From Ascidia mentula (taxonomy: Eukaryota; Chordata; Ascidiacea; Phlebobranchia; Ascidiidae): a stretch of DNA of 64,000 nt. Below are positions 5,868-45,700 of this stretch, piece by piece. The notes under the pieces are model-generated. The model was not told the DNA's origin. It was given only the letters and a program-made list of their open reading frames with translations, and did no database searches. The DNA lies in contig OX387199.1 of assembly GCA_947561715.1 (NCBI GenBank), forward strand, positions 1,183,001-1,247,000. The letters are read 5' to 3'. The position numbers were made by a program, and so were the translations under genes. Every line of letters begins with the position of its first letter. The stretch's first letter is position 1.

Positions 5868-8066
5868 TTAGTTTGCGTTTCCCACTGTGATGGACTCGAC
5901 GCAAAAACCCTTGGTTAAAAGTCCAACAAATTCCTGGGCTGGCCCCAGATGCCGGAGGTAGTAGACATTCTTTTTATTCCAGTGGCAGAACGTGTACTCC
6001 GGCGTAATTTCAAACCTTAGCTGAAAAGATGATAAGTGTATGTTATTTCTTGTTAGCTTTATGACCAACAAAGGCTTTTGTCACATCTCTTTTCGTCCAA
6101 CCTCGGGTTGAAATAGTGGCAAAATTTTTCCGTATTATTCTGCACAAGAAAGTCAATTGCAGACCTGGGAAAATCAAAATAATTGTGTTTGAAATTCCTG
6201 TTGCTGCCAGGCATATTGCATTTAAAAACGTACTGCTCTTCTGGCATAAACGTATTGTATTTTACGACGTTTCGTCTGCCATGCGGCGAGACTTCACCAG
6301 GTACGTCGTAAAATACAATACGTTTATGCCAGAAGAGCAGTACGTTTTTAAATGTAATTGTGTTTGTATTTTGTGCATCGCTGTATAGTTTAATTAGACA
6401 ACATACAAAACTAAAAGTATATGTGGTCGCAAAGTTCAGATGTACAATATGGACCAACAAAAAACAAACAAACAAACTTTGTTGCCAATGGCTTTGCTTC
6501 ACAACTTTTCCTCTAAATGCTTGATCTTTTATAACCACGTCAGTAATCTGAACAATATCCACAATTGTTAGCACGTAAAAATGAATAATTATTAAGTTCT
6601 GTCTTTTATTTCCTTCGAAATTTAAGATGAATAAGTGTTTCCGGCTATTATATATCGTGGATAGTGCAGTGCCAGCCGAAAACACTTTATGTAGGTAGTT
6701 ATGTGGGTTTAACAAACTACAACAAGCTTGATCCTTTAGCGATTTTCAACTCTGGACTGAGGTTAAGTTGACTCCCTTAGGACATTAAAAACATTTTTTA
6801 ACCTTTAGTTGCAAGTTTACCCTGTACGTTAAATATGTTTGTGACAATTAAGCCCCCTAATCTTTACAGCAAAAGTTGAATCAAGTACACGCATTGGTTT
6901 AAAAATATGACGCATTAAACGCAGAAAAAAGTCCGCTTTATCGCATTGGGCTGGGGTAAGATGGTTTACTTCTGCATTACGTTCTGCAATTAAGGTAAAA
7001 CATAATATTCTATTTCAGTGTTTTTTTACTTACTTCGTCAGTTACGTTTGAATCGAGTTTCGCAAATCCTACGCTGAGAATCTGGAAACCCATTATTTGT
7101 AAACCAGAGTAAGTGGAAGGATCGGGCACAAGGTGACCAAAGAAGCAATCCCCCAGTTCCTCTCCATCCCAGTAACATTTAATACCAGCAGAAAGGACTT
7201 CGAACTTTAGCTGCAGCAAGAACATTAAAATGTTTTTGATTGATTCAAACTACTTTGATGCTACAATAAACGCGACTTGATTAAACGCGATGTGCTTTGT
7301 GTGCATATTTCCATTACGGAAGGTTTACCTCAACCACCGCGCCCTTTTCCCAACGGAATAAGTCCCCCTGTCGACAAATTGTTTCTTCTCCCTACGTTTC
7401 GTCCAGGCGGCTGTTCAACACAATTGTTTTCTGGTCAAAACGTGGGTTGAAATGGTAGCCGATCGCCGATGTGTCATTCCCAACCAGAAGGTTGACCTTC
7501 ACTCTGTAAAGGGTCTAAGGTGGTTTTACTTTTGTTTAGTTCCAATATTTCGATATACGCGATGCTTGAAAGGTTGCAATAACCATAACTTTTGACAGGA
7601 CCACAGTTAAAATAAAAAACAACAGTTAGAAAATTTGATCGCAACTATTTTAGGTAACAGTCTTTTCTATATGACCCATAGAATCGAAATTATTCGCAGC
7701 ATACACAATTAAAAGTCTGTTTAATTTTCACCCTGCGTGCATGGGTTGTTACCTGTCTTCCACCGCTATTCCTTTTATCGAAATCGCTCGGTTGAGGGAA
7801 TGGAGGTCGTTCACGTGGTACGAGGTTGCCTTGTGTAAAAATATAATACATTCAAAAAATATGCAGAAGACTTTTATGCGATCGCACGACTTTAAGGCAG
7901 GATCGCCCCACTGAGCATATGCTCTTGGCCATATCAGCTCTCGTATTCTTCACGGGCGTAACAGCCGAGCTGGATCAACCATTGTTACCAACTATATAAG
8001 ATGTTTATATATTTAAAATACTATAGGAAGCATTGTGGTAAACAAATTCCCCGTCATCCTTACCAT
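5868..8066 (-). pseudogene. Two-domain galectin, copy 2, probably dead
   Basis: Same seven-exon layout as its neighbours: 8066-8064, 7829-7753, 7503-7329, 7210-7034, about 6547-6478, 6164 to about 6072, and 6020-5868. CRD1 has HFNPR, but the codon at the conserved sugar-stacking Trp is TAG (7394-7392): the context reads LDET-stop-GEE where relatives have a Trp. In CRD2, the fifth exon runs out of frame near its end compared with copies 1, 3 and 4, and the sixth exon stops soon after HYFNPRLDEK, losing the second half of the sugar site. A perfect hairpin repeat lies in the intron just before that exon. The last exon is still recognisable (FCHWNKKNVYYL). Several independent lesions make a pseudogene the simplest reading; a recent null allele is possible because CRD1 is otherwise well kept. 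Confidence 0.75.
6219..6354 (-). mobile_element. Hairpin repeat A with hammerhead-like loop
   Basis: Perfect inverted repeat: arms 6219-6270 and 6303-6354, 52 of 52 bases complementary, spacer 32 bases. On the minus strand the junction and spacer (6300-6266) read CTGGTGA, a stem GTCT...AGAC, then GAAACGTC, close to the hammerhead ribozyme core CUGANGA / stem II / GAAAC-GUC with one core change. It lies in the intron before exon 6 of galectin copy 2. A segment just outside the left arm (about 6186-6218) matches, on the opposite strand, sequence at about 49475-49500, which marks it as part of an interspersed family. No protein is encoded. Confidence 0.6.
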
Positions 8067-10535
8067 TTTGCTGCTTGTTTAGTGTTTGATCTTTTTGCTG
8101 CAGTATTCCTATACAAACTTTCAAGAAAACAGAAACATTAAATTGGGGTCAGAAAAAACCTTCTTTGGCCATTCCACTTTAATACAAATTATTTTGCACA
8201 CAAGAAAATTTGCCAACGTGAAAAAATATTTCATTGGCAAAATATCTTTCGTGCGCGGTTAATACCAAAAATTGCAATGATTTACGTTAAAACACTGCAC
8301 TGAAAATACGACGATAAACTGAATTAGATAAGATAAGGTAACGCTACCGTTGATAAAACAATATCATAGGGCGTTACTTTTGTCTGTTTTTGGTTTAAAC
8401 GCGACTACTTGAATAATCGAACCCTGTTATACCCCTTGGCTGGCTATGTTTGTACGAAGCGTCGACCCAAGCAAGTTGCTATAATGTCGCCATATCATGC
8501 CGTCTGTCACGCAAAGGTCTTGCGAAATGCTAACCAGTAAACTAATAACATCTGTTCATACAACAATTTGTGTCGGTTCATCTTCTGATGTAATTGCCGA
8601 CGTTGCTTGTGATGCTAATTTACTGAAAGGTATTGGCGACATTTTACCAGTAAACTAACAATTTCCGTCTTTATATGCTACATATTATAAAATAAGCCTT
8701 GCGTAATTTTATCAGTAATTTGACAGTTTCCGTTGGTAACATTTGTTTTCACAACGCAGTGTACAACGCAACATGGCGCGTTTTCTGTCATCCCGGTACA
8801 GGGTAAATTTTTGTTTGTGTTACTTATGAGTGCTGTCATCAATTATAATAAACACATTGTTTCTGTTAGGTGCATTTAGCTTTGTGCTGTTAAACTTTGC
8901 AATTGTCGCGGGCATTGTTAAGTGAAACTTTTAATGCCGAGTAAAACACGCCCATAGCCACTCACAAATAGAATGAATTGTGGATAATGACGTTCGAATA
9001 TTGTTATTAGTGACTCTATTACGTCCAAGCCTAGTTACTGTTTATGCGTCAACAACACATGTAAGTATGTACAAAATATAATATTTCCACATTATTTTGC
9101 CAATTATTATTTTGCATATTGAGTTGCATGCGACGCTGCGAAAAAACGACCCGTGTTTGAACTAAGCGTCAATTGCACGTCGAACCTGAGATGTTTCGTT
9201 ATAAATTAGAAGTGCAACCATTCCTGTTTGGAAAGCTGTTTTGATCGAACCGGAAACTTTGCAATGAATACACAGTGAGACAAAAAATGTCTGGTCACAT
9301 GACTAACAGTTATTATTATAGTGTGGACACCTGTCTGCAGCTCTTATTGACTATTATGACTCTTTTGAGCATATTGTAGTGGTTATTGAGTGTATGTACG
9401 ACACTGGTTGCAAATGTTTGCACAAATCTAAGAAATAGCACGGCATGGAACCTTGGCCATACTCCATGCTTTGTAGCACGGTTATGAGAGGAAAAACAGC
9501 AAGAGAAACCCATGGGTAGTTTGCCAACTATTTGCAACTATTTTAGGGACAAAGATATTACGGATTCAATACTTGATTTACATATCCGCACGAGACCAAG
9601 TTACGTGATCAACATTATGATACGTGTGTATATATTCTGTGCTGTTACGCAGAAAGTTGCGAAGCTGCGTGAGGCGCTGACGTGCCTTGGAACGTAGAAG
9701 AGATGTCACTGACGATAATGAAAATGTCAGCAGGATATGTCGTTAGTTCAGTGGCTCCTCACCCCAATACCTCTGTCTAATTAAAATGATGGTACACATT
9801 GAATAACAGCTTGCACAAAATCCATTCCACAGCACCAGGTGCCATTTGCTAAAGAGCACAAAAATACCCATGGTAACATTTCTATGGTAACATTTCATGG
9901 GTGATCTGCTTTACGTCACAAAGAAACGGATTGAACATTTAAATATCTGGGTGTCATTTTGAAACAGCGCCAATCGAACAAATGCACGTTTGCTTGCCGT
10001 TTTTGCTTGTTAGATTGAAATATAAAGTACTTCTATGAATTGCATATCTTCATTGGTGGAGCCTGTCTTTTCTGTTTTAGGGGAATGCTCACTCCATAAC
10101 ACGCTTCTGTTTGTTACGACTTGTTTAATAATATTTGAAATTACAGTTTGTTAAAAACCTCCATAGATAAAATTCGTTACTTCGCGGTATGTTTTAGCAA
10201 CAATGTACGACACACGTATTCTTTAAATATGGTCTGATGGTATATAATGTTTGTTGGCTCGAATACTTATGATGATCCTGGCTTTCTAAAAGTATTTTTA
10301 CTTTATTGCTGTGTCCTTACCAAAGTTTAAAACGCCATGCTTTAAATTTTTTTTAATAAACATCTTAAGATGTTTGGCCCAACTTGAATTCAGTGAATTT
10401 GCAAAAAAATCGACCCTTTAAGATAATGTTTTTTCACAATTCAGTTTTTCGTGAAATAAAAGCATCAACACAAGACTATCAGTTAAAAACAGGAAACCTG
10501 CATATGAAAGGAAATACACCATTCTATTCCATCGG
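8067..10535. other. Intergenic region between divergent galectin copies 2 and 3
   Basis: About 2.5 kb between two head-to-head genes, so it should hold both promoters. I see only short open frames with no family resemblance. A 20-base string at 7894-7913, in the second intron of copy 2 just outside this region, recurs exactly at 58861-58880. No RNA gene was recognised. Confidence 0.5.
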
Positions 10536-15907: not shown

Positions 15908-18783
15908 TTTGATGCTGTTCTTCACTAGGGTTGAACAACTTAGCGTTTTCAGGATGTCTGCGAAAAGAAATGTAATTAATATAACAAAAATATTTGCAAA
16001 AGCGTTGAAGGTTACGAATCATAAAAGCATCGTACAAAAACAACCCCTAGATGCCATTTACCAAAGAAGACAAAACACACATAATCATTCAGAAAAATAA
16101 AAGCGTTTATATAATGAATGCACAGTGATGTCATACGCGTTATTGTTTTGTGTTTGTTACCTCACTACTGACACTCCCCCTTTTGCAATCGGCCAGACTG
16201 CAATCATAATATTGGTAATATGACAACAACGTTATACGCAATATTGCGAGTTTGTTTTGGGCCTAAATAATTAGTGCTGCATGAAATGTGTTGAAACCTG
16301 AAAATGCATTATTGGTCGACTGACTTTGAATAAAACGAATCAAACAGTTTACATGTCTTTAAATTATGAATTAATAATTTTTGCAACTCAACCGTTTGGT
16401 GTAAGTTAACCACTAACAAATTCCGTTAATAAAACTTGTATTACTTTACATTGCGTTTTCACTGCAATGCAGAATACAAAGAAGTTTACTTTGTACAAGC
16501 AACAGAGTCAATATTGTTGTTTTCAGTAACTTGCAGACACGGCCAGCACTGTTTAGACCTTGTGGGACTTATCAAGGCAGCAAGAGCCAACACTTCCATT
16601 ATTAGTGAATACAGACAACCGCCAGGGGTGTACAGCCTTCAGGGGTCGCCCCATACCACAAACCTTTCCGGTGGGTTAAAAAAGTCATGCAATCTACCAT
16701 GATAATTTGGTGAAACAGCGATTTGTTAGCAGAAAGTGATGCGATGGCGAAAACACTAAAACAGGCCTACGGTGCACAATGAGCTTGCATCAGTCCGGAA
16801 AGAAGCTGTGGATGACTGGCAACGGTCTTGACAGCTAAATAGACAATTGTGGTCGCCGTCAAATGTTTCGTAAAATCTTCGTTATTCAAACTTGTTGCGT
16901 TGTTAAATAAGGATACCTCGTGTACATTGAAATATACTTTTTTTTGTTTCGCAGCAACTTGTTTCGCAACATTTAACGTAAATCCAAGGGTCAGCTTCTA
17001 GACAATCACTTTTTGTTGTAAGATCGCCCATCCCGTTAATATAAGGTGAAATCTGTTTGTGTCGCTATTTGGCGGGAAAATAAGTTATGTTTTGTTAATC
17101 CGAGCTTGTTACGTTGTCGAATAAGGTTGCAATCAAGGCTGCAATTAAGGAGCATGGTTGGAGGTAAATGGCCTGCAATATTGCAACGAATTTGTAATTA
17201 AACAATGGTAATAGCTGGCTATGCTGCTGGTTATTCATCGCTGTGCACTGTGCTGATGCAGGGGAATACGACAGCATTGCGACGGGTTTGGCCTATGCAT
17301 AAGCTGGAAATGCGTGTGATGACTCGGTCCTGTTATTCAATTTGCGCATTAAGTGACGCCCCATTAATTATCTGTTGCGCTTTGTCTACGTCACAAGAGA
17401 TAAATAATCGTCATTTTCTAAAACATTGTGTGTGGTGTGACTTATATGATCCCTTTTTTCGGAGGCGAACAGCGAAAATGTCTGTAAATTTGTTCTTTTA
17501 CTTGGCTGGTCCATCCAAAAACGCAATATCATTTCTAATTCATATTAAATGAAAATTAATCACGTTAAGAAGAGAAAACTAAACATTTCTTCGAAATGGG
17601 CACATTTGTTTTATCCAAGACACTGCTCGCAATAATAAGCACGGTATGTTAATTCTGTGTATGGGTTAGTTGTATTTATCAATGTTACCATTTACCCCGC
17701 TTAATATAAAACTGGTAGCATTTTCGCCACCTTGTGACAGCGCTAGCTTGTTTCATTTCAGTTGCCAAGACAATGGATGGGAATTTCAATTTCATTACTT
17801 TTTAATTTTGTATTACTGGGAATCTAAAACAAATTTGAAATCCTTCAGAGTTGAAATTATAACTTGCAACTGTTGGCTTAAAATCGTGTGGTACGCAATT
17901 CGTTTGTTTTTAATGTGTGTTTATTTAAGTTACTTTTACGAAAAGACTAAAAGGCTTCAGTGTTGCGACAAGGTCTAATTTGAAAAAAAGGTGTATGATA
18001 AGTGTGAAGTACAAGCTATACAAAGGCGTTAATAATAACAATAGACTTCCAGATGAGAAATATTGATGGTGTAAATTTAGCCAGGACAAACCAACATTTT
18101 TTATTTCTTATCTGTTAATTTTTTTCGCAGATTGCTGATAAAATTGCTAACAAATAATTTTATGTCTTTCCTTTCAATCAGGCTAACATGAGTCAAATAA
18201 TAAATCATATTTTGTGGTTATATATACCATGTTTTAAGCATAAAACAACATCATTTTACATCAAATTCGTTGACGAATCTTTTGTGAAAATCAATTGTAA
18301 TTTTTTGTTAAAAATGCCTCCCCCTGTGTGAATTTATTAACAAGGATAAATTCAATGAAATTTCTTTTAGGCAAACTGATTTTCCAGAAAAATGGGCCTC
18401 TGTGTTATATATATATACAATATAAAAACATGTTTAAACTAATGTTTGAAACTTAATTAAAGTAGATTACTCTAAAACTAATTCCAATCTTTTTGACAGA
18501 TGCATGTTAGATTTTATTTTAATTCTTGACAATGAAACTTAAATTTCTTTGAGAGATGTTAGTAACATTTATTTTGTAAATTGTGTTGGACAAATCTGTG
18601 GTCTTGGTTTCTGTCTCACAATACAGATTGGTGTTTTACCAGCCTTTTGGTTGTTGTTATGTGCAATAAAATTATTATCAATCTGGCAAAAATAGAAAAT
18701 TTGTCTATGGGTAAGTGTCAATCACATGCTAATCCTGCAATTTTATTGCTTCAACAGGAAATAGTCGTTGTGGTAAAAACAAA
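15908..18783. other. Gene-poor stretch between galectin copy 4 and MNS1
   Basis: About 2.9 kb with no convincing exon. The longest open frame (17205-17552, plus strand) has no domain, no splice context and a composition like the surrounding DNA. A short string near 17500-17525 resembles one near 52535-52555, suggesting a degraded dispersed repeat. An AG acceptor near 18757, just before the MNS1 start codon, may close a 5' untranslated intron or be a spliced-leader trans-splice site, which ascidians use. Confidence 0.45.
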
Positions 18784-20277
18784 ATGTTGGCCTCACAACG
18801 CCGCACTGCTCTTACTCATGCGCAACAAGAAAAACTGAGGGTTGAAAATCGACGAAAAGAAAACCTTCGTGATGATTTCATAAAGAACCTCCGCGATGAT
18901 GAGCTAATTAAGGCAAATGTGGCAAGTGAAGACCGCGTCTCGGACAAGAGATTCATCAGACGTCTTCAGCGTGAGGAGCAGGAACGTTTGATGGAGGAAG
19001 CGATCATTAAAGCCGAGCAAAACAGAAGACAGCGGGAAGAACAGGTTGAACAGGAGGAGAGACTGGCAAAGGAGTTGGAAAAAATTAAATTGGAGAAGAT
19101 TCGGGATGAAAAGATGCGACAGCAGATTCGAGACAACAGCCTCGAGCTTCGGGAGCTTGAGTCTAAGCTGAAAGCGGGCTACATGAATCGAGAACGGGCA
19201 GCTCAAATTGCTGAAAGGGAGGCAATTAAACTGCAAGGAATGCAGAGAGATGCCACGATTGCAAAACTGATGATGTCTGAACATGAAAGGGCGGAGAAGG
19301 CAGAGCAACAAAGAGAAATGGAGCGGTGGCAGGAAAGTGTCCGTTATCAACAGGAGTTGGAACGACAACTGGAGGAAAAAGAGCACAAGAAACAAGAGGC
19401 TTATGAAGAATTCCTCAAAGAGAAGCTCATGATCGATGAGATTGTAAGAAAGATTTATGAAGAAGACCAACGGGAGCAGGAAATGAGGTTTGAAAAGCAA
19501 AGAGCCACTCAGCGTTTCATTGAAGAGTTCAAAGAGAAGAGGGATGAATGGAAACGACTCGAGCGGGAAAGATTGGAGGAGGAAAATCGCAAAATTCTTC
19601 AGTTTGCTGACATGCAACAAGCCAGGGAGAATGACAGGATGGTTAAACAACAAGAGCAAGAGAATGCAAAGGCACTCGTACAACAACAACTTGCAGACAA
19701 GATTGCTCAGGAACAGAGTAACAAGGAGGAACGTGAGCAAATACTTCTTGATCTTTATCTTGAGGAGCAAGAAGAAGCGGAGCGAGAAAAAGAAAAGTCC
19801 GAACAAGAGAGAAAGCTCAGACAGAGAATCGAGCTCCAGGAGACGCATCGAAATCAGATGGAGTTCAAAGAAATGCGCATGGAAGCAGAGAGGCAAGAAG
19901 AAGAAGAGTTCAGAAAACAGATGCTCGCTAAATTTGCTGAAGATGATCGCATCGAGCAGATGAACGCTCAGAAGAGAAGGATGAAGCAGTTGGAGCATAA
20001 GCGAGCAGTGGAGGCCCTCATCGAAGATCGTCGTCGCCAATTCGAGGCAGATCGTGAACGTGAGATCAATGAGCTTCGCGAGGAGAAGATGATGCAAGCC
20101 ATGAGAAGACAGATCATCGAAGAGGAAAGGCAGAGGCTGCTTAGAGAGCATGCCACAAAGCTGCTTGGATATCTACCAAAGGGCGTTCTAACCAGTGACA
20201 GAGACCTTAAGATGTTTGATGAAGCGTTCCAAAAGGCTTACGAGAAACGACAAGTTGACCCTTTTGGCGACGAATAA
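18784..20277 (+). CDS. MNS1: Meiosis-specific nuclear structural protein 1 (MNS1)
   Basis: Ciliary and flagellar coiled-coil protein of 497 residues, close to the vertebrate length. In the family it lies inside axonemal doublet microtubules and helps dock outer dynein arms; it matters for motile cilia, sperm tails and left-right asymmetry. The whole protein is one charged coiled coil rich in Glu, Arg, Gln and Lys. The C-terminal block RLLREHATKLLGYLPKGV (about residues 456-473) is the strongest family signature. The start at 18784 gives the natural N-terminus MLASQRRTAL, with an in-frame stop close upstream. The coding region is one uninterrupted 1.5-kb exon, unlike all its neighbours. It is tail-to-tail with CCHCR1, 738 bp apart. 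The long antisense open frame across it is a by-product of its codon composition. Confidence 0.93.
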   Translation: MLASQRRTALTHAQQEKLRVENRRKENLRDDFIKNLRDDELIKANVASEDRVSDKRFIRRLQREEQERLMEEAIIKAEQNRRQREEQVEQEERLAKELEKIKLEKIRDEKMRQQIRDNSLELRELESKLKAGYMNRERAAQIAEREAIKLQGMQRDATIAKLMMSEHERAEKAEQQREMERWQESVRYQQELERQLEEKEHKKQEAYEEFLKEKLMIDEIVRKIYEEDQREQEMRFEKQRATQRFIEEFKEKRDEWKRLERERLEEENRKILQFADMQQARENDRMVKQQEQENAKALVQQQLADKIAQEQSNKEEREQILLDLYLEEQEEAEREKEKSEQERKLRQRIELQETHRNQMEFKEMRMEAERQEEEEFRKQMLAKFAEDDRIEQMNAQKRRMKQLEHKRAVEALIEDRRRQFEADREREINELREEKMMQAMRRQIIEEERQRLLREHATKLLGYLPKGVLTSDRDLKMFDEAFQKAYEKRQVDPFGDE

Positions 20278-27000: not shown

Positions 27001-27538
27001 ATCATAACTTACAACATTTACCCACTTCTAAGTATGTTAGTTTCATAAACCAAAATTTAATAAAATATAAACAGCCACCAGCATAAATATTAAACTTCAT
27101 CTTAGCAATCAAGAGCCGCTTGGGTTAAAGAATAATCTTTATTCAACATACTTCCTTTTGTGTCAAGTGTGACTTTGCTTTGATGATGCTTTTTAGAGCT
27201 TTATTTTCTTCTTCCAACTCTTCAAGTACAGCATGTTGATTATCATTACCAGGTTCTGAAAATCTACTTTGCTTCATCCAACCATACCCAGAGTCAAAAC
27301 GTGAAGCACTATGGCTTCTTGGCTGGTGGCAGAATCGTCGACTGACATTTGAAATGCCTCTTCTAGGTGCCAGTGATGGTCCTGCTTCAACACATTTGCG
27401 TGGATCAGGTTTGATAAGAAAATCGTCTGGTGTCTTGAGCACAGCCACAGGATCCTCATCTAAGTTTTCTTCTGGTTCAGAATCATGGGAACCGTTTGAT
27501 GGAGGGGAAGAAAAATGAGAGGGTGGAATTAAATCCAT
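21016..27538 (-). CDS. CCHCR1: Coiled-coil alpha-helical rod protein 1 (CCHCR1)
   Basis: Centrosome- and P-body-associated coiled-coil protein. Sixteen coding exons, all phase-compatible, give about 883 residues: 27538-27152, 26941-26841, 26704-26507, 26443-26278, 26145-25967, 25768-25592, 24830-24694, 24362-24217, 24149-23997, 23876-23740, 23478-23362, 23290-23116, 22759-22642, 22219-22093, 21575-21449, 21222-21016. Three places tie it to the vertebrate protein as I recall it: the N-terminus with LIPPSHF, the middle EWRAKVFELMVQCKSQEI (human RWREKVFALMVQLKAQEL), and the end, where VVSLRQ, DNALMLTTLRQEGLVAAYK parallels VVSLRQ and NLMLATLQQEGLLSRYK. The first 120 residues are Ser/Pro-rich; the rest is heptad coiled coil. 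The last exon adds a short Pro-rich tail. A MULE transposon sits 685 bp upstream of the ATG. Confidence 0.9.
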
Positions 27539-28213
27539 TAAAACGACCTGTTTGGTTTTACAAGTTGCTGAAGTGCCCTAAAACACAGAAGAACACCTAA
27601 ACAAGACCATGCAAACATACAAACGTTTTACAATTGTCTGTTGTTTATCTTAGCCCAAATTGGAAAAAATGTCATGCACAGTGGATATAATTTAGATAAT
27701 GCATTACATATGAAAACTATTCTGATAATCAGTGCTTTTCTGCACAATCGACAGCCACTAAAAAATCTCCCACATAAATTACAAACTCTCCAATCTGGAT
27801 CTTAGTCGAGAATGTCCAGATTTGACCAACAGCTTAGAAAAAATGTTACATTTTTGAAATTTTATTTGTAATCTGTATAAACCAATACATTATATTTTTC
27901 ACATGCATACATTAAAATCATATTTTTTTCAATTTATATTAGTTAGGTTGTGCAACTGCAAAAGTACATGACACTTGTTGCCCAACCAACAGGTGCAACT
28001 AACTTGGAGTGAACCTTAACTACATGAAGATAAAACAAGAATAACCTAAAGCTACTGATATATCCAAAACGCTTAGGATTTTTAAGATCTTCCCGCAACT
28101 TGCTTTTAAAACTAGCACACGTTTGTTTTTTGTTGTCATTCGAAAGGTTAAAAGGTCGCAGTAAATGAAGCTGTAAAGTTAGAACTTTGAACAAATTTCT
28201 ATGTTTTTAACAG
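27539..28213. promoter_or_regulatory. 5' flank of CCHCR1 up to the transposon
   Basis: About 0.7 kb between the CCHCR1 start codon and the target duplication of the MULE. It should contain the CCHCR1 5' untranslated region and core promoter. On the minus strand a possible splice acceptor near 27575 could end a 5' noncoding intron. No clear TATA box was picked out. Confidence 0.35.
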
Positions 28214-28222
28214 ATATTTTTT
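28214..28222 (+). repeat. Left copy of 9-bp target-site duplication
   Basis: ATATTTTTT directly abuts the outer end of the left terminal inverted repeat. The identical nine bases follow the right end at 35443-35451. MULE elements typically duplicate 8-11 bp of target. Confidence 0.85.
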
Positions 28223-28508
28223 GGTTACCACACTTACACCTAAACTGAAAGTCGGGCGCAGATTCGACGTAAGCCTGGTTTGTGAGGTCACAAAGGCTAT
28301 TGTCGTGCGTCGGTGCGTCAGTGCTGCTGATGATTTCTACTAGCTGAGTTTGTACTTCGCTGTGTGGGCACTTTAGGCAGTATTTGCTGCATAACACATT
28401 GGAATATTTGTAAATAAAATTAATCGTTCAGTAAAGAAGTTAAATAAGTCAAAAAGAAATAAAAAAATGTGGTAAATGCTGCAATTAACATTTTTATGCG
28501 CAACTGGT
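28223..28508 (+). repeat. Left terminal inverted repeat of the MULE
   Basis: 286 bp, the reverse complement of 35156-35442 apart from one substitution (near 28375) and one single-base length difference in a T run. It contains, on the minus strand, an open frame of about 60 codons framed by an AG acceptor-like and a GT donor-like signal (see findings). Confidence 0.93.
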
Positions 28509-28693
28509 AAAACTGTGCACGTGTGTAGGATTGTAAAGCAGAGGGCAACTGATATCTGCTTATTTTTTAGGTAGAGTTTGTCACTTTTACAATGTTGGCT
28601 GGTTTACCTATAAGGCAATAATCTTTCAGTAATGTTCTTAACTGTTAATGCAGGTTTTTCTACACATCCAACGGATTTCGTGCTAGAAATAAC

Positions 28694-31600
28694 ATGTATT
28701 TTTGCGGAAAAAGTTATTGTCTGTTAAAAAATATTGTTGACGCAAGTAAGTTTCGGTCGTTTCGGCATTGTGTGCCAATGCCGAGGCATTTGATGATTTC
28801 TGAGGATATTCCTCAAACGTCGTAAGTTGTATTTTGTATAGTGGGCCTGTAAATTTGTTGAGGTTTAAGAAAATGATATATAACTTGCTTTAGCAGCAAC
28901 GACCAAGAGACATTTTATGAAGTGGATTTTGCACACTCTAATACGGTGGAAAAGGTTAGTAATCTTTGAAAAATCGCCTTTTATGAAAGAGCAAATTTTT
29001 CCACTAGAGTTAATTATGAAATCCTGTGTTCAAAACAAAATGGAAAAATATATATATATATGTTAATGTTATGGGCAATAAATTAGGTTTGCATTTTATT
29101 GTTGACAGTGGTTTGAGTCTAAATGTGAAGCAAAAAATATGCTACACAAATTTGAAAAATCACTTACACTAACCTTGAAGCCCCCTTCAGTTAAATCTCA
29201 TGGTGAGTTTTAATGGATTTACCTACTAAAACTCTTTTTTGATACTTTAGTGTTTTTTGTTTCATTTTTGAAGATTTATGTGAAAGCTATGTGCACTGGA
29301 ATGATGCTGACATTCCATATATTGTTACTCAGTCAGAGTGCTGTGAATCACTTTGGCATTTTAACGGAAGCAACATTTGTCAATATGTGATCACCATTTG
29401 CGATGTTTTGGTTTTTCCGAAGTTTAAAAGAATGGTATTATATATATATATATATGCTTACTTAAATTTTGTCATGGCTGTATCATTGCCTTGATGTCTA
29501 TGTGGTATGCCAATATGTTATGCACAGAACAAGCAAACACAGTACAACCTTGGAAAGGCAAGTAAAGCAATAAGAAACAGCCTCAATATCCAAAGTTCAA
29601 TTGTATCACATGAAACAAGATTTTTTGTGAAACTTGTGAAGAATGTGTTTACACCAGAAACTCATTTGAGTAAAATGGTTAGTGAATAGTTTAGGTTAGC
29701 ACAGTTACAGCATATGTGTATGTTTTAGTTAAGTAGATCAGAAGCAGCAGAGAAGAATACCAATCAAACTGTGCAGGTTGTTAAGACTTGATTGGCGCGA
29801 TTAACATGTTGAAGTAAATCTAACTATTGTTGCAGTGGGCTTGTTCAATGAATCAAGCAAAACATTTAGTTGAGAAATTTGAAATCTCTACAATGACAAA
29901 GTTTATTACACTGTGGAAGAGGTCGTTTGGTATGACTTAGAAAGCAATAGAACTATATTGTCATTCAGTGTTCTTTTATGGGTCCTACAAAAAAGTTTAT
30001 TGGGGTCAAATTTTTTCGTAGTGTATTTATTTGTATTTTTTCAGACATTTCAAAAAGTCGTCTAAATTGGGACAAAAGTACCAACACTCCTTATGTTATT
30101 TTACAAACTAAGGTGCTGGAATGTCAACATTCAAAAGACCGTAACATGGTAAAAAATCAAAGACGTCGTGTCTCAACTCCTGTACAGGTATATTTGACTT
30201 GTGGAAAATATTGTGATCCTCTTCTGTAATGCTTCCTTCTGTTTTTAGTTACAAGATCACCCAAATCCTTGCAAAAGGCATTTGTGTATTCAGGGAACAA
30301 AAAAAAGGAATTGTGGGGCAAATATTGTAATTCAGGAAATTTTAAAGTTCCCACAATTTCAGGTATTTTTAATTAGTTGGAAATGAATTGTTAGATGTAC
30401 AATTACTTTAACACAACAAATGTTTAGATGATTTCAAAGTGTATACCCAAAATGAAAAAAATTAGTGTTATTATAAAAGATTTGATACGAAACAATGACA
30501 AGCAGTTGATAAAGGAACAGACTTGCAGTGTTTGCTTCCCCAAGGAGGATGACCATACAGGTCATGTTTTAGGGGAAGTAAGTTGTAGTGAAAGATTTGT
30601 AAAATTGTTAATATATCTAACTCAGCTAAATAAACATGATCTTGTATTTATTAGGCTGCCGGATTCCTTCAACCTGTTGATCAGAAAATAATTACCAAAA
30701 TAGATCAATTGGTTACAGAAGGTGTAAGCAGTATCGAGGAAATTCTAAGAAGCCTAAAACATTATGTTGCCCATGAACTTTTTAAAAATGATACCCCACC
30801 ATCTACTTCAAACAGGAGATTTTATCCAACGAAAAAGGACATTCAAAGTCATTATTACCGGGCATTTTGTAAACACAGATTTGCAAAAATTGATCAAACT
30901 AATGTCCAGTGCTTGGTGGATGAATGGGTGAAGTCAGGAGATGGTGATGACAATATATATTTCCGGCCATATATTGCAAACATGAAACCTGAAGTGATTG
31001 ATGGAGAAACAGCACCAGTCATTAAATCTGAACAAACAATGCTGTTAATTCACCAGTTTGCTTGGCAACGTAGATTGCTTCTGCGTTATGGCCAAGAAAT
31101 TTGTTTGATGGATGCTACCTACAAGACATCCAAATATGCACTTCCCCTATTTTTCGTCTGTGTGAAAACAAATGTTGGGTACCAAGTTGTGGCCAGCTTC
31201 ATTACACAGAATGAGAGACAAATGGACATTGAAGAGGCACTGATAATATTAAAAGAATGGGCTCCTCAATGGCAACCATCATTTTTTATGGTTGATAAAT
31301 GTGATGCTGAAATCCATGCCATTGAAAGTGTTTTTGCAGGTTCAATATCTTCATAAAACATGCATACCATATATGTCATTGTATTTTTTTATAGATGTCC
31401 GTGTCCTTATTTGCGATTTTCATCGTGAACAGGCATGGGAAAGATGGGTTAAAAAATCTGAAAATCAAGTAGGCCCAGACAAGGATGAAGTTTTATCATT
31501 TATGAGAGGAATTGCTAATGCTGAATGTGAGGAAAGCTGCGACAGAGCATTACATCTATTTCAGTCCAGTTCTGTATGGATAAACAATGTGAAACTGCAA

Positions 31601-33751
31601 AAATACTTCACAAATGTTTGGCTTAAAGAAAAAGAGGTAGATATATTTACAAAAGGTATATCATAGTGTCAGCTGCAGGTAATGAAATATTTTATGTAGC
31701 GATGGATGTGGCTCTATCGGGCAGACCAGTTAAAGGTTTTGATTCGCACCAACAATGGTGTCGAGAGACAAAACCGAGTTTTAAAAGAATGCCATGTGCG
31801 ATTCAGGACAGATAAAACTTTGTCTGGCTTGATCACAATTCTGCACAAGGAATTCCTCCCTAATGCTTACGAGAAGTAAGTTACCTTACCTACAAACAAT
31901 TACAGAATTTTTTTATATGTGAATGAAAATGGCAAATTAAATCCCATATCATAAAGATACAAGCAAGAAAACATGAGATCTTCTGGCGATTACAGAAGTT
32001 ACAATACAGATGTTCCCAATTTTCTACGAAACCGCCCAAGGAAGTTGGTGAAACATTGCATTAAACGTATTATAGAGTCTGCAAACATTCAGGCAAGTTT
32101 AATATGTAAGAAAGAAGACCTGTTTACTGTGGTAAGCAGTTCATCTTCTGAAACATACACTGTGAAATTTGGCTCTAACAGTGATTTTCCAAATTGTACA
32201 TGCCATGATTTTTTGCACAATTTTTTACCATGCAAGCATATGTTTGCAATATTTAATAAGTATGCAGATGTCGGATGGCATAGTCTGCCGGAATGGTACA
32301 GCAACTCTGTTCACATGGTTTTGGATCCTGCTGTTGTAAACAAATTGTCAGCTGAAACAGTTTCCAATTCTGGAGCTCAAACTGAAGAAATCATTTTTAC
32401 CACTATGGACCAATCAGATTCCAACAAACCTGTAAACATTGAAGTACCGGAAAAAAACAGCAGTCACAAACAAAGTCATCAAAAGTTTATTGATGTGATA
32501 AAACATTTAATAGACCTTTCTTATGATGTCAATTCCCAAGTTATGGACGAAGGCATTTCTGATGCCAATGCCATGGTGGCTAAGTTTTCTAAAGCATGTT
32601 CTTATGATTCTGGGTTTAGAATAACTCAGCCTGTTCCTCTTAAGTCTTTGAAAAGGAAGCGGAAATCACCATTCTCTGAAAAAGGTTCCTGTGATAAATT
32701 GCCTCGCAAGCGACCAAAAGCGAATCCATTTTCTTCTCGAGTCGGGCAGTTTGCAAATCTCATGCGACCACTGCATCAAGTGGCCACTTTGTTTCCTATG
32801 GTGAAGAAAAGTGTAAAACAAAGAACATCACAGACAGCAAAGGCCTGTAACAAAAATGAATCTTCTGATGAGGATTTTATGGATGGAGTGGAGAACATAA
32901 AACCAGTGGTGCAAAAAAACATCACAGCTCATATTACATCAAATAAACCTACGAGTAGGATTTTGAAAAACGGCCCTCATTCAATTTCTCTGTTAGAATT
33001 GAAATCACTGGATGATGCGTTGCCACCTGCTGAAGTTAGTGAACTTAAAAAGCATGACAGCAGATTTAATGTTGGTTGGCTTTACGATGAAGTCATTAAC
33101 AGCTACTTATGGCAAATAACCAGCATGTACCAAGACACACTGTATGTTTGTTCTACTGTGGCTCAAACATTGCAGAGAAAGGCTTCAATTAAAAAAATTT
33201 GGGAAGGTGTAACGTTTAAGGGCAAAAAAACAATTTTTATACCATGGAATCCTTCCGGGTTTCATTGGGTTTTACTTGTCATTGACATCTCCAACCACAA
33301 AATGCTTTATATAGACCCTTTGACAATGCCTGATGTAGAAACTGACAACAATGTTCGGACTGCACAAGATATGGTGAATTATCTTTTAACAACCAAATTT
33401 GGTTGGAAAATTTCCACTTTGGAAACTCCACAGAGAACAAAACAGCCTGATGGATCAAGCTGTGGAGTTATGATCTGTATGTACGCTAAATGGCTGGCAA
33501 CTGGAGAAAGTATCAAACAAATTGTTTGTACGCACAGCTACAGATCAGAAATGTTAAAAGTAATCGTTGGAAAGTGCCTTGATGGCACAAATGATAAAGA
33601 AACCTGCAAAGCATGTGAATCTGAAAACAATGACCCAATGAATACTCTTTGGGTTGAGTGCACTCGATGTGGACAGTGGTTTCACATTAAATGTGTTGGT
33701 TTATCACAGAAACGTGCAGAAAATGATAAACATTTTGTGTGCAAACTGTAA
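28694..33751 (+). CDS. MULE transposase with CARF-like, DDE, SWIM, Ulp1 protease and PHD modules
   Basis: Predicted protein of about 1,329 residues from 13 phase-compatible exons: 28694-28821, 28897-28954, 29109-29202, 29274-29434, 29528-29677, 29836-29929, 30045-30187, 30249-30362, 30428-30577, 30655-31339, 31395-31636, 31700-31875, 31957-33751. Residues 1 to about 360: a Cys-containing region resembling the CARF/ALS2CR8 family (ECQHSKDRN, CGANIVIQEILKFPQFQ). MULE core: LMDATYKTSK (Asp about 517), FMVDKCDAE (Asp about 578), the CDFH pair, and TNNGVERQNRVLK (Glu about 695). SWIM finger CxCx...CxH about 811-830 (CTCHDF...CKHMF). Ulp1/SENP-like protease: His in GFHWVLLVID (about 1167), Asp in YIDP, Gln in KQPDGSSCGV and Cys about 1233, so the catalytic set is present. 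C-terminal PHD finger from about 1282. All modules look intact. It should excise and insert the element; roles of protease and PHD are unknown. Confidence 0.88.
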
Positions 33752-33782
33752 ATCGATGTTTACATCATAATTGTTTATGTGT

Positions 33783-33835
33783 ATAAGCTGCAGCTTATAC
33801 ACAAATTCATATTATTGGCTCCACATTGCTTATAA
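33783..33835 (+). repeat. Short dispersed repeat inside the MULE 3' noncoding region
   Basis: AAGCTGCAG followed by a segment containing TCATATTATTGGCTCCAC and TTGCTTAT. The same succession of blocks occurs at about 59116-59185 in an integrin intron. This suggests a small interspersed repeat, perhaps nested in the transposon. Identity outside the blocks is low. Confidence 0.45.
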
Positions 33836-35155
33836 TTGTTTATATTTGAAACTTTCTTTCTGGAGGTAACGGCCTAGTTGAACGCAAGTGTGGTCAACCA
33901 ACCAAATAAGTCTAAAAAGGCTCAACGTTCTACACAGGGTTGAGTTTCTGATAAAAATAAAACTCCCCTAATGTATGAATGTGGTTGACCGTTAGGCCAT
34001 TACTTTGTGATGTGCCTGAACGCTTTGTGTGGTTGCCGACTAGCTAGTATGGGGTAACCCAATGCTAGCTGAACGCTTACATAAGTGTGGCTTACCTTAA
34101 CTGGCCAAAACCAAAACTCCACCTTTAAGCTTTTTTTATTTAGTGAGCATTTTTGTTCACAATTGCCGAGCATATGCAATTTTATACTAATACTCAGTTT
34201 CATATGGCTACTGGCGAGGCGTCTGGGTTGAATCAAAAATGCCAACGATCACAAAACAGGATGCCTCTTTGGGCGTGATGGGAAATCCTGTGTTAACTTA
34301 CAATAGCTGAAATCTAACAAGTTGATTTACAATTTTTTTTATAGGTTGAGACTTGGGGAGTATTTCTCTTCTTGAAGCACATGATTCCTTTTCGTATGTA
34401 CAGCAAATGACCTGTTGTATTAAAATATTCGGTTTTAAACCTCAACCCATGGTAATCACAAGTAACCTTTCACTGGATCTGTGAGTACATTTTTGTTTCA
34501 GTTGAAATTACCGAAAATACTATTTTATGTATTGTCATAGTAACGCATCTGCACCTACTAACATATCTGTGCTGCTTTGACTTGTCACTGTGGAAATATG
34601 AAAATGTTTTAAAAAACCCAACTAAAGTAATCTAAATTATTTGCGAGTTTGCCATCTACCCTGCATTTAAAAAAGATAGCATGGCTTGTATTACCAGTTT
34701 TTTTCCTTCCTCAGGAGTGAAGCATGAACCGACAAGTTCATCCGAATTGTTGTTATCCTGCAATTGAAATAAAACAAACATTCCAATTTGTTTTTAAATA
34801 AACCAGTTGTAAACCTCGAATAACTTGTGCCTATTGAGTGTAGTATTTTGACCTTGGTATGCAGGCTTTGAAATAGCACGACGTTTGACCGTAATTAAAC
34901 ATTGACAAATGTAAAGGTTTTTTCCACAAGAACATACTTTTACAGAAAGTTAACAAATTAGCAGATGAAGCTAAAAGAAGCTGGAAACGGAATTGCTTTT
35001 AAAGTAATGGCTTTATATGAGATTAACCGTGTTTTAAAACGGTTAACCGGATTCGTTCGTAAGTTTAATTTTAAGACATTACTTCTTCTACACATACAGC
35101 ATTGCGTCCTCGGCGATTTTATGCAACAAAGCGAGTTATTGTTAAGACACTGCAA

Positions 35156-35442
35156 ACCAGTTGCGCATAAAAATGTTAATTGCAGCATTTACCACATTTT
35201 TTTAATTTCTTTTTGACTTATTTAACTTCTTTACTGAACGATTAATTTTATTTACAAATATTCCAATGTGTTATGCAGCAAATACTGCCTGAAGTGCCCA
35301 CACAGCGAAGTACAAACTCAGCTAGTAGAAATCATCAGCAGCACTGACGCACCGACGCACGACAATAGCCTTTGTGACCTCACAAACCAGGCTTACGTCG
35401 AATCTGCGCCCGACTTTCAGTTTAGGTGTAAGTGTGGTAACC
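35156..35442 (-). repeat. Right terminal inverted repeat of the MULE
   Basis: 287 bp, pairing with 28223-28508. On the plus strand it carries the same outward-facing open frame as the left copy on the minus strand: acceptor-like TTATGCAG just before 35280, coding-like segment with YCLKCPH near its start and FRCKCGN at its end, and donor-like GTGTAAGT at about 35426. Confidence 0.93.
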
Positions 35443-35451
35443 ATATTTTTT
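35443..35451 (+). repeat. Right copy of 9-bp target-site duplication
   Basis: ATATTTTTT immediately after the right inverted repeat, identical to 28214-28222. Confidence 0.85.
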
Positions 35452-42776: not shown

Positions 42777-45700
42777 TTACACAATAAATCCTGATTCATC
42801 AATTTCATCATCACTCAGCAGTTTTCGTTCAAATGCGTAAGTAAGTAGTTGTTCATGCCTTTCTTTTTCCTGTTTTGAGAGGATTGCTGTTGCCTAGATA
42901 ATATAAAAAAAGGTTCCAATGCATTATTGCTTGATACAAAAATATTAAAGTACTGTCAAAAAACATGTAAATTTCTTTTTTTTAAATGTCCAATCCGGTT
43001 AAACGTAGAGGTGTAAGTTCCAAATCGTGGCCTGTCTATCGTCAAGAAAATAGGACTCTATTACTTTCTACACGGTAACGTTGGGAGCTTATTTCCGTTT
43101 CCTGCATAGTCAATGGGAACAATCTTTAATTGTCTTAGAACAATACAGTCGCTTTTGTTGCGCTTCCGCGATGCAAAAGCCTCGTCATCTCCAGTCTCAG
43201 TAAATCTTACAAACAATGATTATGATGAATTCGTTATTGGTACCGCACTGTAACATATCCGCTTTGAGACCAACCCGACTACAAAAGAGAGAGAATGCAT
43301 CTCAGTTGCCATTGATAAACGTATTAACAACGTTGTCGTTGATGGGAAAAAAAATGCACCTCTGACAACAACTATACTGCTACTGAAAATAGGTTGTGAC
43401 CACCAGGTATCATAACGAATTATGAATCTGACGTTCTTCTGGTGAAAAACAACAAATATACACCTTTTGTTTAAAAAATATTTTCGCTATACTGTGTTTG
43501 TTTTATTCTCTGAAGAAGCCTAGTCGTGCGTACAGGCGAAACGTCAGAAAATACAATCTTTTTTAAACAAAAGGTGTATATTTGTTGTTTTTCACCAGAA
43601 GAACGTCAGATTGATATACTGCTACTTCCGGATATTCGCACAAACAAAGGCTTCGCAAATTAACCGTATTCGTTTGCATCCGGATAATCGCACAAAAAGT
43701 TCGAACCATTAACCAGATTCGTCAGTATTAACAGTTTGGTAAAATTTTTTCATCGACATGAGATGGGAATTTGCCACAAACCTCATCTTTGTGTTGGTTG
43801 TCTTCATCATCAACATCCGGGACTACTTGCGCAGGAGCTGAATGTGCACGATAATGTTTCCATGACGACATGCTCTCGGTAAGTTTGGCCAAAACGTCAG
43901 CAGCCGTCAGACGTTGTTTTGGATCGAGGGTTAAAAGCCCTTGAATTATTTCGTTCGTGTTCACAGACACGGTTCCAGTTCTGAAAAAACACAAAAATTA
44001 GGATTGGTAATCGTTTTCTAATTGGCAAATGCGCCATTCAGACCCAAAATACGACATGTTGACATGCATATCTGAAAGTTTTCTGTATATTTTGAGCAAT
44101 AAAATGAGTTACATATTTACTTTTGTAGTTTACATAATACTGCACATGCGAAAAAAAGCAAAATTCTTGTCTTTTGGTAACAATGGGAGGCAGTGAGAAC
44201 AACTATTGAAAATTGATTGTTTTTACTTACACGGGTATCGAAAATTTCGCATGCTTAATTTTGCTGAAAAGAACTTTCGGTTTTGGATCGTAAAACGGAA
44301 ACTGTCCGTAAAGCATTGTGTACAGTACGACACCTAGTGACCACATATCACTTGCCTTGCCAGAATAAGGTTTTCCTGAAATAAACAAAGCGAAAGTTAA
44401 CAGGCGTACCCAATGAAGAGCAACATATTTTTTCAAAGAGATGTTATGATTTTTGCTATAATCTGGAATTGCGCAACAGCAATTCTTTGAAACGCCAGTG
44501 TTTCAGGGTGTTGCGAAATACTTGTTGCGCAACAGACCTGGTGAGCAAACAAAATTGTCTGGTTTCGCGCATTGTCGAAACTCCAAGGACCCATGTGGTT
44601 GACAAATCATATAAACCTAAAACACCCGATAGAATTTGAACGAATACGTGACCTTCGTATGAATACGTAAGGTGAACATCGAAAATATGAAGTCTGTATG
44701 GTATGGTTCAGGTAACCCGAGATTAGGAAATCGTTTAAAGTCTTTCATACCTAATGTTTGTTTCCAACGAAGATCACGGTTGTGCGTAACTTATGCACAG
44801 GATTAGCGACGTCAGATCGCGAGAAAAAATCGATTGACCGAAACTCACCGCTCAATACATCAGGGCTTATGTAAGCGGGACTTCCCCTTTGGTCGGTCAG
44901 CATTTCTCGTTCGTTGCTAAGGTGACAGCCGAGGCAGAAGTTGGTGAGGGTGACGCGGCGAACTCGCTTGTCCAAAACCATGTTGCCCAGCTTCAAGTCG
45001 CGATGGACGACGTTGATCTGCAAAAAGGAAAGGTTTACTGTATACGCCCCCTGTAGTATATGTTCACACTTATGTGGAAGCCGAATGGACGTCAAAGGAG
45101 AATGCAAACTGATAGGCGTAAATGCCATATGTGGGTGGGAAATAGTATCGCCAGCCACCAGACTGTTAATGTAGGTTCGCGCTATATGTTAGTGTAAAAA
45201 CAGAAAATCAAGACATCGAAATTGCTCCTGCATGTGATGTTTTTCATGTTTTGGGCCTGGTGTGATGGATTTTGTTTGAAATATTAATGTCTCCTGTTCA
45301 ATTATGCTGCTTGCCCAAAAAATGATTACATTGGTTATGGTGCTTGCATTCAGTGGAAACGGGTTGGTAATGTTATGCAAATGCTAGCTTGTTCACATGT
45401 TTTTTGGGGGATGTGTGCCACATCGAACATTCCCAGTTTACATCAACTTAATTTTGGGGTAAAACCTAACGTTGTAAAAATTGTGAAATAAAGGAATCTC
45501 ACCAAATTTTTCAACTTAATTCAAATTTTATTTTTGCATGGGACAAAATGAAATGGCTTCATCAATGAAACAGTTTGTGATTGGGTAAAAAAACACCTTT
45601 TTCATTTTGTTGGAAAAAACTTTTTTATGAGTTGGTAAAGATATCGCTTAATCTCACAACTTTATGGAGTGTATAATACTTGCATTGGTTTTGGTCCAGA

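Follow-up and report, generated by a model that had tools for sequence, protein, structure and literature searches.

In a 64,000-nucleotide stretch of the Ascidia mentula genome (contig OX387199.1 of assembly GCA_947561715.1, positions 1,183,001 to 1,247,000 of the forward strand; hereafter the window, in whose coordinates positions are given), positions 28223 to 35442 hold what looks like a recently active DNA transposon, a Mutator-like element (MULE). We think it likely that this recently active MULE has a predicted 1,330-residue transposase, in which a CaRF-type DNA-binding region, an RNase H-like DDE (Asp-Asp-Glu) core, a SENP/Ulp1-type protease and a PHD finger are joined. Ulp1 and PHD parts are already known together in animal Mutator transposases, and the element is a variant of the MULEs; the part with reach is a possible link between a MULE transposase and CaRF, a neuronal transcription factor.

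The extent of the element follows from its ends, its flanks and its copies:
28223..35442, + strand (gene strand): whole MULE, 7,220 bp, from the terminal repeats, the flanks and copy L009, full-length and nearly identical, which has a target duplication of its own
28214..28222, strand not applicable: left target-site duplication ATATTTTTT, from flank comparison
35443..35451, strand not applicable: right target-site duplication ATATTTTTT, from flank comparison
28223..28508, + strand: 5′ terminal inverted repeat
35156..35442, - strand: 3′ terminal inverted repeat
33779..33831, strand not applicable: stretch of ~53 bp containing a palindrome, found in the window copy but not in copies L009, L010 and L011, from copy alignment

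The element thus ends in the terminal inverted repeats (TIRs) expected of a MULE, ~287 bp long, with arms that are 99% complementary over 28222-28467/35198-35443 and 95% over 28451-28508/35156-35213. The target-site duplication (TSD) is an exact 9 bp, within the 8-11 bp range of MULEs. In the genome searched (195.8 Mb, 79 contigs), a probe from the protease/PHD region gave at least 41 matches. Copy L009 is full-length and 99.7% identical to the window element over the longest aligned piece, whereas L010 retains both ends around an internal deletion; their own 9-bp duplications are GATAATAAC and GGTTGATTA, respectively. Inverted repeats with an exact 9-bp duplication had been claimed by an earlier, sequence-only reading of this DNA, and the duplication is now seen in all three copies with both ends readable (the window copy, L009 and L010); the ends of a further copy, L028, were inspected, and no clean pair was found. 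The near-identity of L009 suggests that the element has moved recently.

The predicted gene is described by the following features, all on the + strand. Every exon comes from a splice model and from comparison between copies, to which an alignment of the domain adds for exons 7 to 9 and Pfam for exon 10:
28694..28821: exon 1
28894..28954: exon 2
29109..29202: exon 3
29274..29434: exon 4
29528..29677: exon 5
29836..29929: exon 6
30045..30187: exon 7, start of the CaRF/ALS2CR8 domain, first Cys of the C-C-HxxH set
30249..30362: exon 8, CaRF domain, second Cys (NCxA)
30428..30577: exon 9, CaRF domain, HxxH
30655..31339: exon 10, end of the CaRF domain, then the RNase H/MULE domain with DATY
31395..31636: exon 11, further RNase H sequence with CDFH (CxxH)
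31700..31875: exon 12, with NGVERQN, which we take to be the context of the catalytic Glu
31957..33751: exon 13, SWIM finger, basic linker, protease, PHD finger and stop codon
32180..32263: SWIM zinc finger, from Pfam (residues 76-103 of the exon 13 frame)
33197..33532: Peptidase_C48/SENP-like protease, with the codons of His at 33263, Asp at 33314, Gln at 33443 and Cys at 33461
33605..33745: PHD finger with seven of the eight metal ligands
33748..33753: GTAAAT, a splice-donor-like site overlapping the stop, found in 15 of 17 tabulated copies (7 of 9 groups)

Joined, these exons give a coding sequence of 3,993 nt and a protein of 1,330 residues (about 1,329 had been predicted earlier) with no internal stop, and all 12 introns are bounded by GT and AG. 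Divergence between copies, in place of transcripts, was used to support this model, and nine copies were aligned exon by exon. L009 is almost identical to the window copy in this alignment. L014, L018 and L021 differ from it by 15.2%, 18.4% and 18.6% of coding nucleotides, respectively, and yet keep all 12 intron borders (GT-AG), show only frame-keeping changes in length and have full open frames of 1,328, 1,337 and 1,337 residues, while their introns share 41-78% identity with those of the window, with many gaps. Because L018 and L021 differ from each other by 0.6%, these copies amount to two independent lineages besides that of the window, L014 on the one hand and L018/L021 on the other. Since the borders and the frame are retained where the introns have diverged, there is good evidence that the 13 predicted exons, including the one that encodes the SWIM, protease and PHD parts, form a single gene. 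We also observed that exon 11 (31395-31636) is 98% identical to that of L014, compared with 89% for exons 10 and 12, possibly as a result of recombination or gene conversion between families.

In the spliced protein, six Pfam matches exceed the Pfam cut-off: ALS2CR8 (E 5.9e-36, residues 232-432), ZSWIM1-3 RNase H (PF21056, E 1.6e-12), MULE (PF10551, E 8.9e-12), SWIM (E 2.5e-4), Peptidase_C48 (E 7.8e-12, residues 1147-1258) and PHD (E 3.9e-6, residues 1283-1329, 27.2 bits against a cut-off of 24). The profile searches that the sequence-only reading had proposed as a check on itself (ALS2CR8, MULE, SWIM, Peptidase_C48 and PHD) therefore matched every region, and both Pfam and the comparative frames agree with its claim that a single intact MULE frame unites CARF-type, RNase H, SWIM, SENP-like and PHD parts. 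The architecture recurs. Among the 54 MULE matches in genome-wide lists that are lower bounds for ALS2CR8, MULE and Peptidase_C48, 31 have a same-strand Peptidase_C48 match 1,496-2,130 bp downstream; within 5 kb, a Peptidase_C48 match is never upstream or on the opposite strand. An ALS2CR8 match lies upstream within 3 kb of 32, and 27 have both; the other 27 lack ALS2CR8, Peptidase_C48 or both. This recurring order of ALS2CR8, MULE and Peptidase_C48 implies that the architecture belongs to the lineage and not to a single copy.

We estimated the ratio of nonsynonymous to synonymous substitution rates (dN/dS), with bootstrap intervals, for the three pairs among the window copy, L014 and L018, which represent three families; the L018-L021 pair has too few changes to be informative. 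The ratio was lowest in the RNase H region (0.05-0.10), followed by SWIM (0.12-0.13), the protease (0.14-0.18), the CaRF domain (0.16-0.22) and the N-terminal 231 residues (0.25-0.33). Purifying selection acts on the CaRF, RNase H, SWIM and protease regions, and these low values indicate that the protease and the CaRF domain have been kept by selection together with the transposase.

The Pfam family ALS2CR8 takes its name from the gene for CaRF. This neuronal transcription factor of the calcium response is described as unique and without relatives; it binds DNA directly, a function placed in its coding exons 6-7, and a second conserved region has been noted (PMC2877716). The N-terminal part of the transposase carries this family over almost the full profile (positions 6-228 of 235), so that the N-terminal domain of the window protein, listed but not developed in the sequence-only reading, is by its profile the conserved domain of CaRF. 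The protein itself is no CaRF orthologue, since its predicted gene also encodes an RNase H core, and no transposase core is described for CaRF in the excerpts of PMC2877716.

The same genome holds 34 clusters of ALS2CR8 matches that have no MULE or Peptidase_C48 match within a linkage distance of 4 kb, some of which are perhaps fragments. Four of them (L034, L035, L036 and L037) have long frames encoding parts of the CaRF domain with no MULE nearby, and Pfam confirms ALS2CR8 in L034 and L035 when their frames are joined. Eight spliced CaRF-type sequences were aligned: those of the window, of L058, which has a Peptidase_C48 match downstream, and of L056, L034, L035, L036, L057 and L059, which have no MULE or Peptidase_C48 match nearby. 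A Cys, a Cys-x-Ala and a His-x2-His are invariant in all eight, and the domain of L056 is 69% identical to that of the window. Out of 17 domain-bearing sequences (the window and 16 loci), 12 were assembled, leaving out L049, L051, L052, L053 and L054, and the order C...CxA...HxxH was found in all 12. It resembles the ligand order, C...CxA...H(x)H, of the WRKY-GCM1/FLYWCH/FAR1-type zinc fingers that other MULEs and FAR1/FHY3 carry, with a longer spacing here than is usual in those families. A search of Protein Data Bank (PDB) sequences with the profile of the CaRF alignment gave a single weak match, to a bacterial YajQ protein (E 0.017). Three ALS2CR8 loci without a MULE match, one of them L037, lie 8.5-9.0 kb apart at G000:C2:1090678, 1099217 and 1108206, and are perhaps a tandem family of CaRF-like genes.

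For the protease, 17 copies were aligned through the protease and PHD regions, leaving out copies with a broken frame there and two Peptidase_C48 frames in which no PHD is apparent. His, Gln and Cys are present in all 17 rows and Asp in 15, and the window protein has the whole His-Asp-Gln-Cys set, as claimed earlier, within a Peptidase_C48 fold. The closest solved sequences in the PDB are SENP2 (E 1.6e-6) and SENP1 (E 2.5e-5), and a structure model of the region, with a mean predicted local distance difference test score (pLDDT) of 68.6, matched the folds of SENP5, Ulp1 and SENP2 (E 1.0e-9 to 3.3e-9). The residues and the dN/dS values fit a working enzyme. Relatives of the protease/PHD alignment were searched for in viral contigs, and none was found. 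The two frames left out, L046 (G000:C71:14516200-14517250) and L045 (G000:C71:15047560-15048600), show no PHD by eye, unlike those linked to MULEs.

A PHD finger is a C4HC3 structure with eight metal ligands. The C-terminal finger had been claimed as such, and the Pfam match above cut-off stands, but not the eight-ligand set, since exon 13 encodes seven and the finger terminates there as Cys-x-[L/V/I/M/S]-stop. Every one of the 17 rows has a Trp three residues ahead of the third Cys, and 16 have the Trp of QWFH. PDB sequence matches include the fingers of ALFIN-like 3 (E 4e-6), BPTF and KDM5A, which read histone H3 trimethylated at lysine 4 (H3K4me3), and we take the aromatic positions to be those of H3K4me3 readers. 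The last codon reads NTG, with TAAAT, TAAGT or TAGAT behind it, in 15 of the 17 copies, which amount to 7 of 9 groups as we grouped them, so the donor-like GTAA/GTAG is kept though the last residue varies among L, V and M; L038 and L047 deviate. This hints at a further exon that would complete the finger. A search for downstream AG-N-TGY acceptors in four copies and for conserved blocks in six families gave no consistent exon 14, and a candidate in the window copy was dropped because it falls within the ~53-bp stretch missing from L009, L010 and L011. At L023 (G000:C1:15009000-15018900), the protease/PHD end occurs three times in tandem with a spacing of 1,677 bp; the stop is replaced there by a Gln codon, still without a Cys in place.

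About 0.44 kb past the stop codon lies a further feature:
34195..34229, + strand: near-invariant motif of 35 bp containing GCGAGGC

The 35-nt window that holds the motif is 91% identical between L009 and L014 and 94% identical between L009 and L018, compared with 17-66% and 0-74%, respectively, for other windows past the stop. Genome-wide, 55 matches with three or fewer mismatches were found and none to the reversed pattern. A same-strand match to the protease region lies within 4 kb upstream of 39 of the 55, and in no case does the motif precede such a match; 16 are without this anchor, and three have a protease-region match on the other strand. GCGAGGC is kept in 16 of 19 distinct variants, which were collected by similarity over the whole motif. 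The motif may have a role in the element. No clear codon-position bias was seen in any frame of the 19 variants, and two copies folded no better than shuffled sequences, so that coding and hairpin functions were rejected. Rfam gave one match far below cut-off (E 0.091), and a tRNA search gave none. The GCGAGGC of the motif fits RYGAGGC, the end of RRARYGAGGC, the motif reported for CaRF by chromatin immunoprecipitation (PMC2877716). CGAGGC occurs three times in the element against 0.4 expected, a count reached in none of 60 shuffles, an excess that is weak because the string was chosen after the motif had been seen.

How does this element compare with known systems? Plant MULEs of the Kaonashi group are said to carry an Ulp1-type protease; these and other plant Ulp1 MULEs are alike in that combination and differ in their hosts, being set apart from our element by description only, and we know of no CaRF domain in them. 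The 2010 paper on Ginger, which includes Mutator transposases in an Ulp1/PHD alignment, cites the presence of Ulp1 in Mutator elements from hydra and from lancelet, as well as in plant MULEs (PMC2836005); the fusion of an Ulp1-type protease with a PHD finger, pointed out in the sequence-only reading, had therefore already been published for animal Mutator transposases. The hydra and lancelet MuDR elements share with ours the Mutator superfamily, a C-terminal Ulp1 and, in at least some, a PHD finger, and are set apart by description only, a CaRF-type N-terminus being absent from the excerpted descriptions (PMC2836005). Ginger1 has a transposase with a C-terminal Ulp1, and a PHD in one listed family, but its core is a Gypsy-type integrase and its TSD 4 bp, versus a MULE core and 9 bp here (PMC2836005). 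Phantom is an animal MULE with a TSD of similar length (PMC3169594, PMC6446971) and typically has an N-terminal FLYWCH finger, of which Pfam found none in the window protein up to E 1; a genome search for FLYWCH gave no match, nor did its controls. FAR1/FHY3, in the excerpted accounts, resemble the present case in that a MULE transposase yielded transcription factors, and differ in belonging to plants and to another N-terminal family. Evidence for MULEs in chordates has been called limited, with one Ciona sequence, and Phantom is listed for Tunicata (PMC6446971).

Rehavkus is alike in its 9-bp TSD, in a TIR length within whose range ours falls and in a recorded PHD finger; it has a minisatellite before the 3′ TIR, which the window element lacks, and Ulp1 and CaRF are unmentioned in the excerpts of its description (PMC6446971). 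Minisatellite arrays are found in two relatives of the window element. Downstream of the gene of L014 (L014:7305-9386) there is a 97-bp minisatellite of ~21 copies, as in descriptions of Rehavkus. In L016, of a related family, arrays of a 57-bp unit in opposite orientation, with ~22 and ~26 copies, lie either side of the gene (L016:1-1266 and 7839-9317; G000:C70:20311900-20321750). Foldback-type MULEs are already known (PMC3169594), and L016 is, judging from these arrays, probably one with this transposase.

If the favoured reading holds, the gene of the element would be transcribed and spliced, and the N-terminal domain, by homology to CaRF, would bind element DNA. The RNase H-like core would then cut and insert with a stagger of 9 bp, as the duplications show. 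The protease would probably strip SUMO or a relative of it from the transposase itself or from host factors for repair or silencing, and the PHD finger, if complete, would probably read H3K4-methylated chromatin and so bias insertion, the weakest of these steps. As for the targeting of chromatin or SUMO marks that the sequence-only reading had suggested, the residues and dN/dS of the protease fit an enzyme, whereas the PHD finger has neither clear constraint nor, in the predicted exon, an eighth ligand, and the suggestion keeps its conjectural standing.

Several points weigh against this reading or against its extension to CaRF. The 13-exon gene is a prediction supported by comparative splicing; only two lineages besides that of the window back the full model, and in the remaining five of the nine aligned copies the frame is interrupted by stops once the exons are joined, some of which may reflect borders set wrongly. 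With two and not three independent lineages behind the gene model, we hold both readings less firmly. The catalytic Asp is replaced by Asn in two of the 17 protease rows (L039 and L040), though not in the window. The likeness to CaRF is through the profile of the Pfam family and not through the sequence of CaRF or its DNA-binding region; a model of the domain (a fold test on L036), of middling pLDDT (64.6), gave no fold match, and between L034 and L037, both of CaRF type without a MULE, dN/dS is 0.52 (0.30-0.84), a mild constraint. Consensus sites for CaRF are not enriched in the element, with observed and expected numbers of 1 and 2.2 for cCaRE, 2 and 3.2 for chCaRE, 3 and 3.0 for CaRE1 and 4 and 2.6 for YGAGGC, so that the GCGAGGC likeness serves as a lead only. 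CaRF genes and this transposase may share ancestry, with domestication as the conjectured direction. The finger is likewise in question: exon 13 lacks a codon for the eighth ligand in all 17 tabulated copies, one row has a broken PHD and another is short of a ligand, and with dN/dS values of 0.27, 0.50 and 0.77, and bootstrap intervals exceeding 1 in two of the three pairs, the PHD is not clearly under selective constraint. The tail could thus be a degenerate remnant without histone-reading function, which we regard as unlikely, given that seven ligands are complete in 15 of the 17 rows, both aromatic positions are retained in 16, and the donor-like site hints at an exon still to come.

A closer contest is with the view that this is an ordinary animal MuDR with Ulp1 and PHD, its CaRF-type domain being the usual, unnamed N-terminal DNA-binding domain and only the host being new. 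The hydra and lancelet elements, the published Ulp1/PHD alignment (PMC2836005) and the many loci of this genome that share the architecture speak for it, and we give it somewhat less than an even chance. Yet no paper pairing ALS2CR8 with a transposase was found in the open-access literature: among the matches listed, papers with CARF and transposase dealt with a CARF of Wnt signalling, a CRISPR CARF protein and the safflower genome, none with MULEs, and the one for ALS2CR8 with serum proteomics. Neither name occurs in the main text of a survey of animal transcription factors derived from transposons (PMC10027918). A more far-reaching proposal, which we advance tentatively and consider less probable than that view, is that CaRF is a domesticated or otherwise shared N-terminal domain of a MULE, a divergent C-C-H-H zinc finger that still recognises a motif bearing GCGAGGC, and that its source was an old animal MULE lineage in which transposase, SUMO protease and PHD finger were fused. 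The reverse course, capture of a host CaRF gene segment by the transposon, appears rather improbable to us. MULEs do tend to pick up fragments of host genes (PMC6446971), and CaRF-domain loci without a nearby MULE match exist in the same genome (the 34 clusters, four of them read). Against capture, the domain spans exons 7-10, the last of which also holds the start of the RNase H core; ALS2CR8 and Peptidase_C48 stand in the same order at 27 of the 54 MULE matches; and the domain is under purifying selection between families. Together these facts make the CaRF domain a working part of the transposase today, while leaving the original direction unsettled.

If domestication did take place, CaRF, so far described as lacking relatives, would gain an origin by a route like that of FAR1/FHY3 in plants. 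Irrespective of that proposal, this one genome offers a group of animal MULEs, intact in appearance and recently active, in which the parts played by a built-in SUMO protease and a histone-reading finger are open to direct study, and the near-invariant cis motif is usable as bait.

Within the window, an open frame at 27143-27577 (- strand), by eye the first exon of a minus-strand gene and without a Pfam match, is ~0.65 kb away from the element's left end; the insertion may therefore be near a promoter. Ordinary host genes are represented by a TPH-domain protein at 18736-20274 (+ strand, E 1.7e-89), a protein-kinase exon at 44754-45188 (- strand, E 1.2e-8) and a VWA exon at 58507-58911 (+ strand, E 3e-5).

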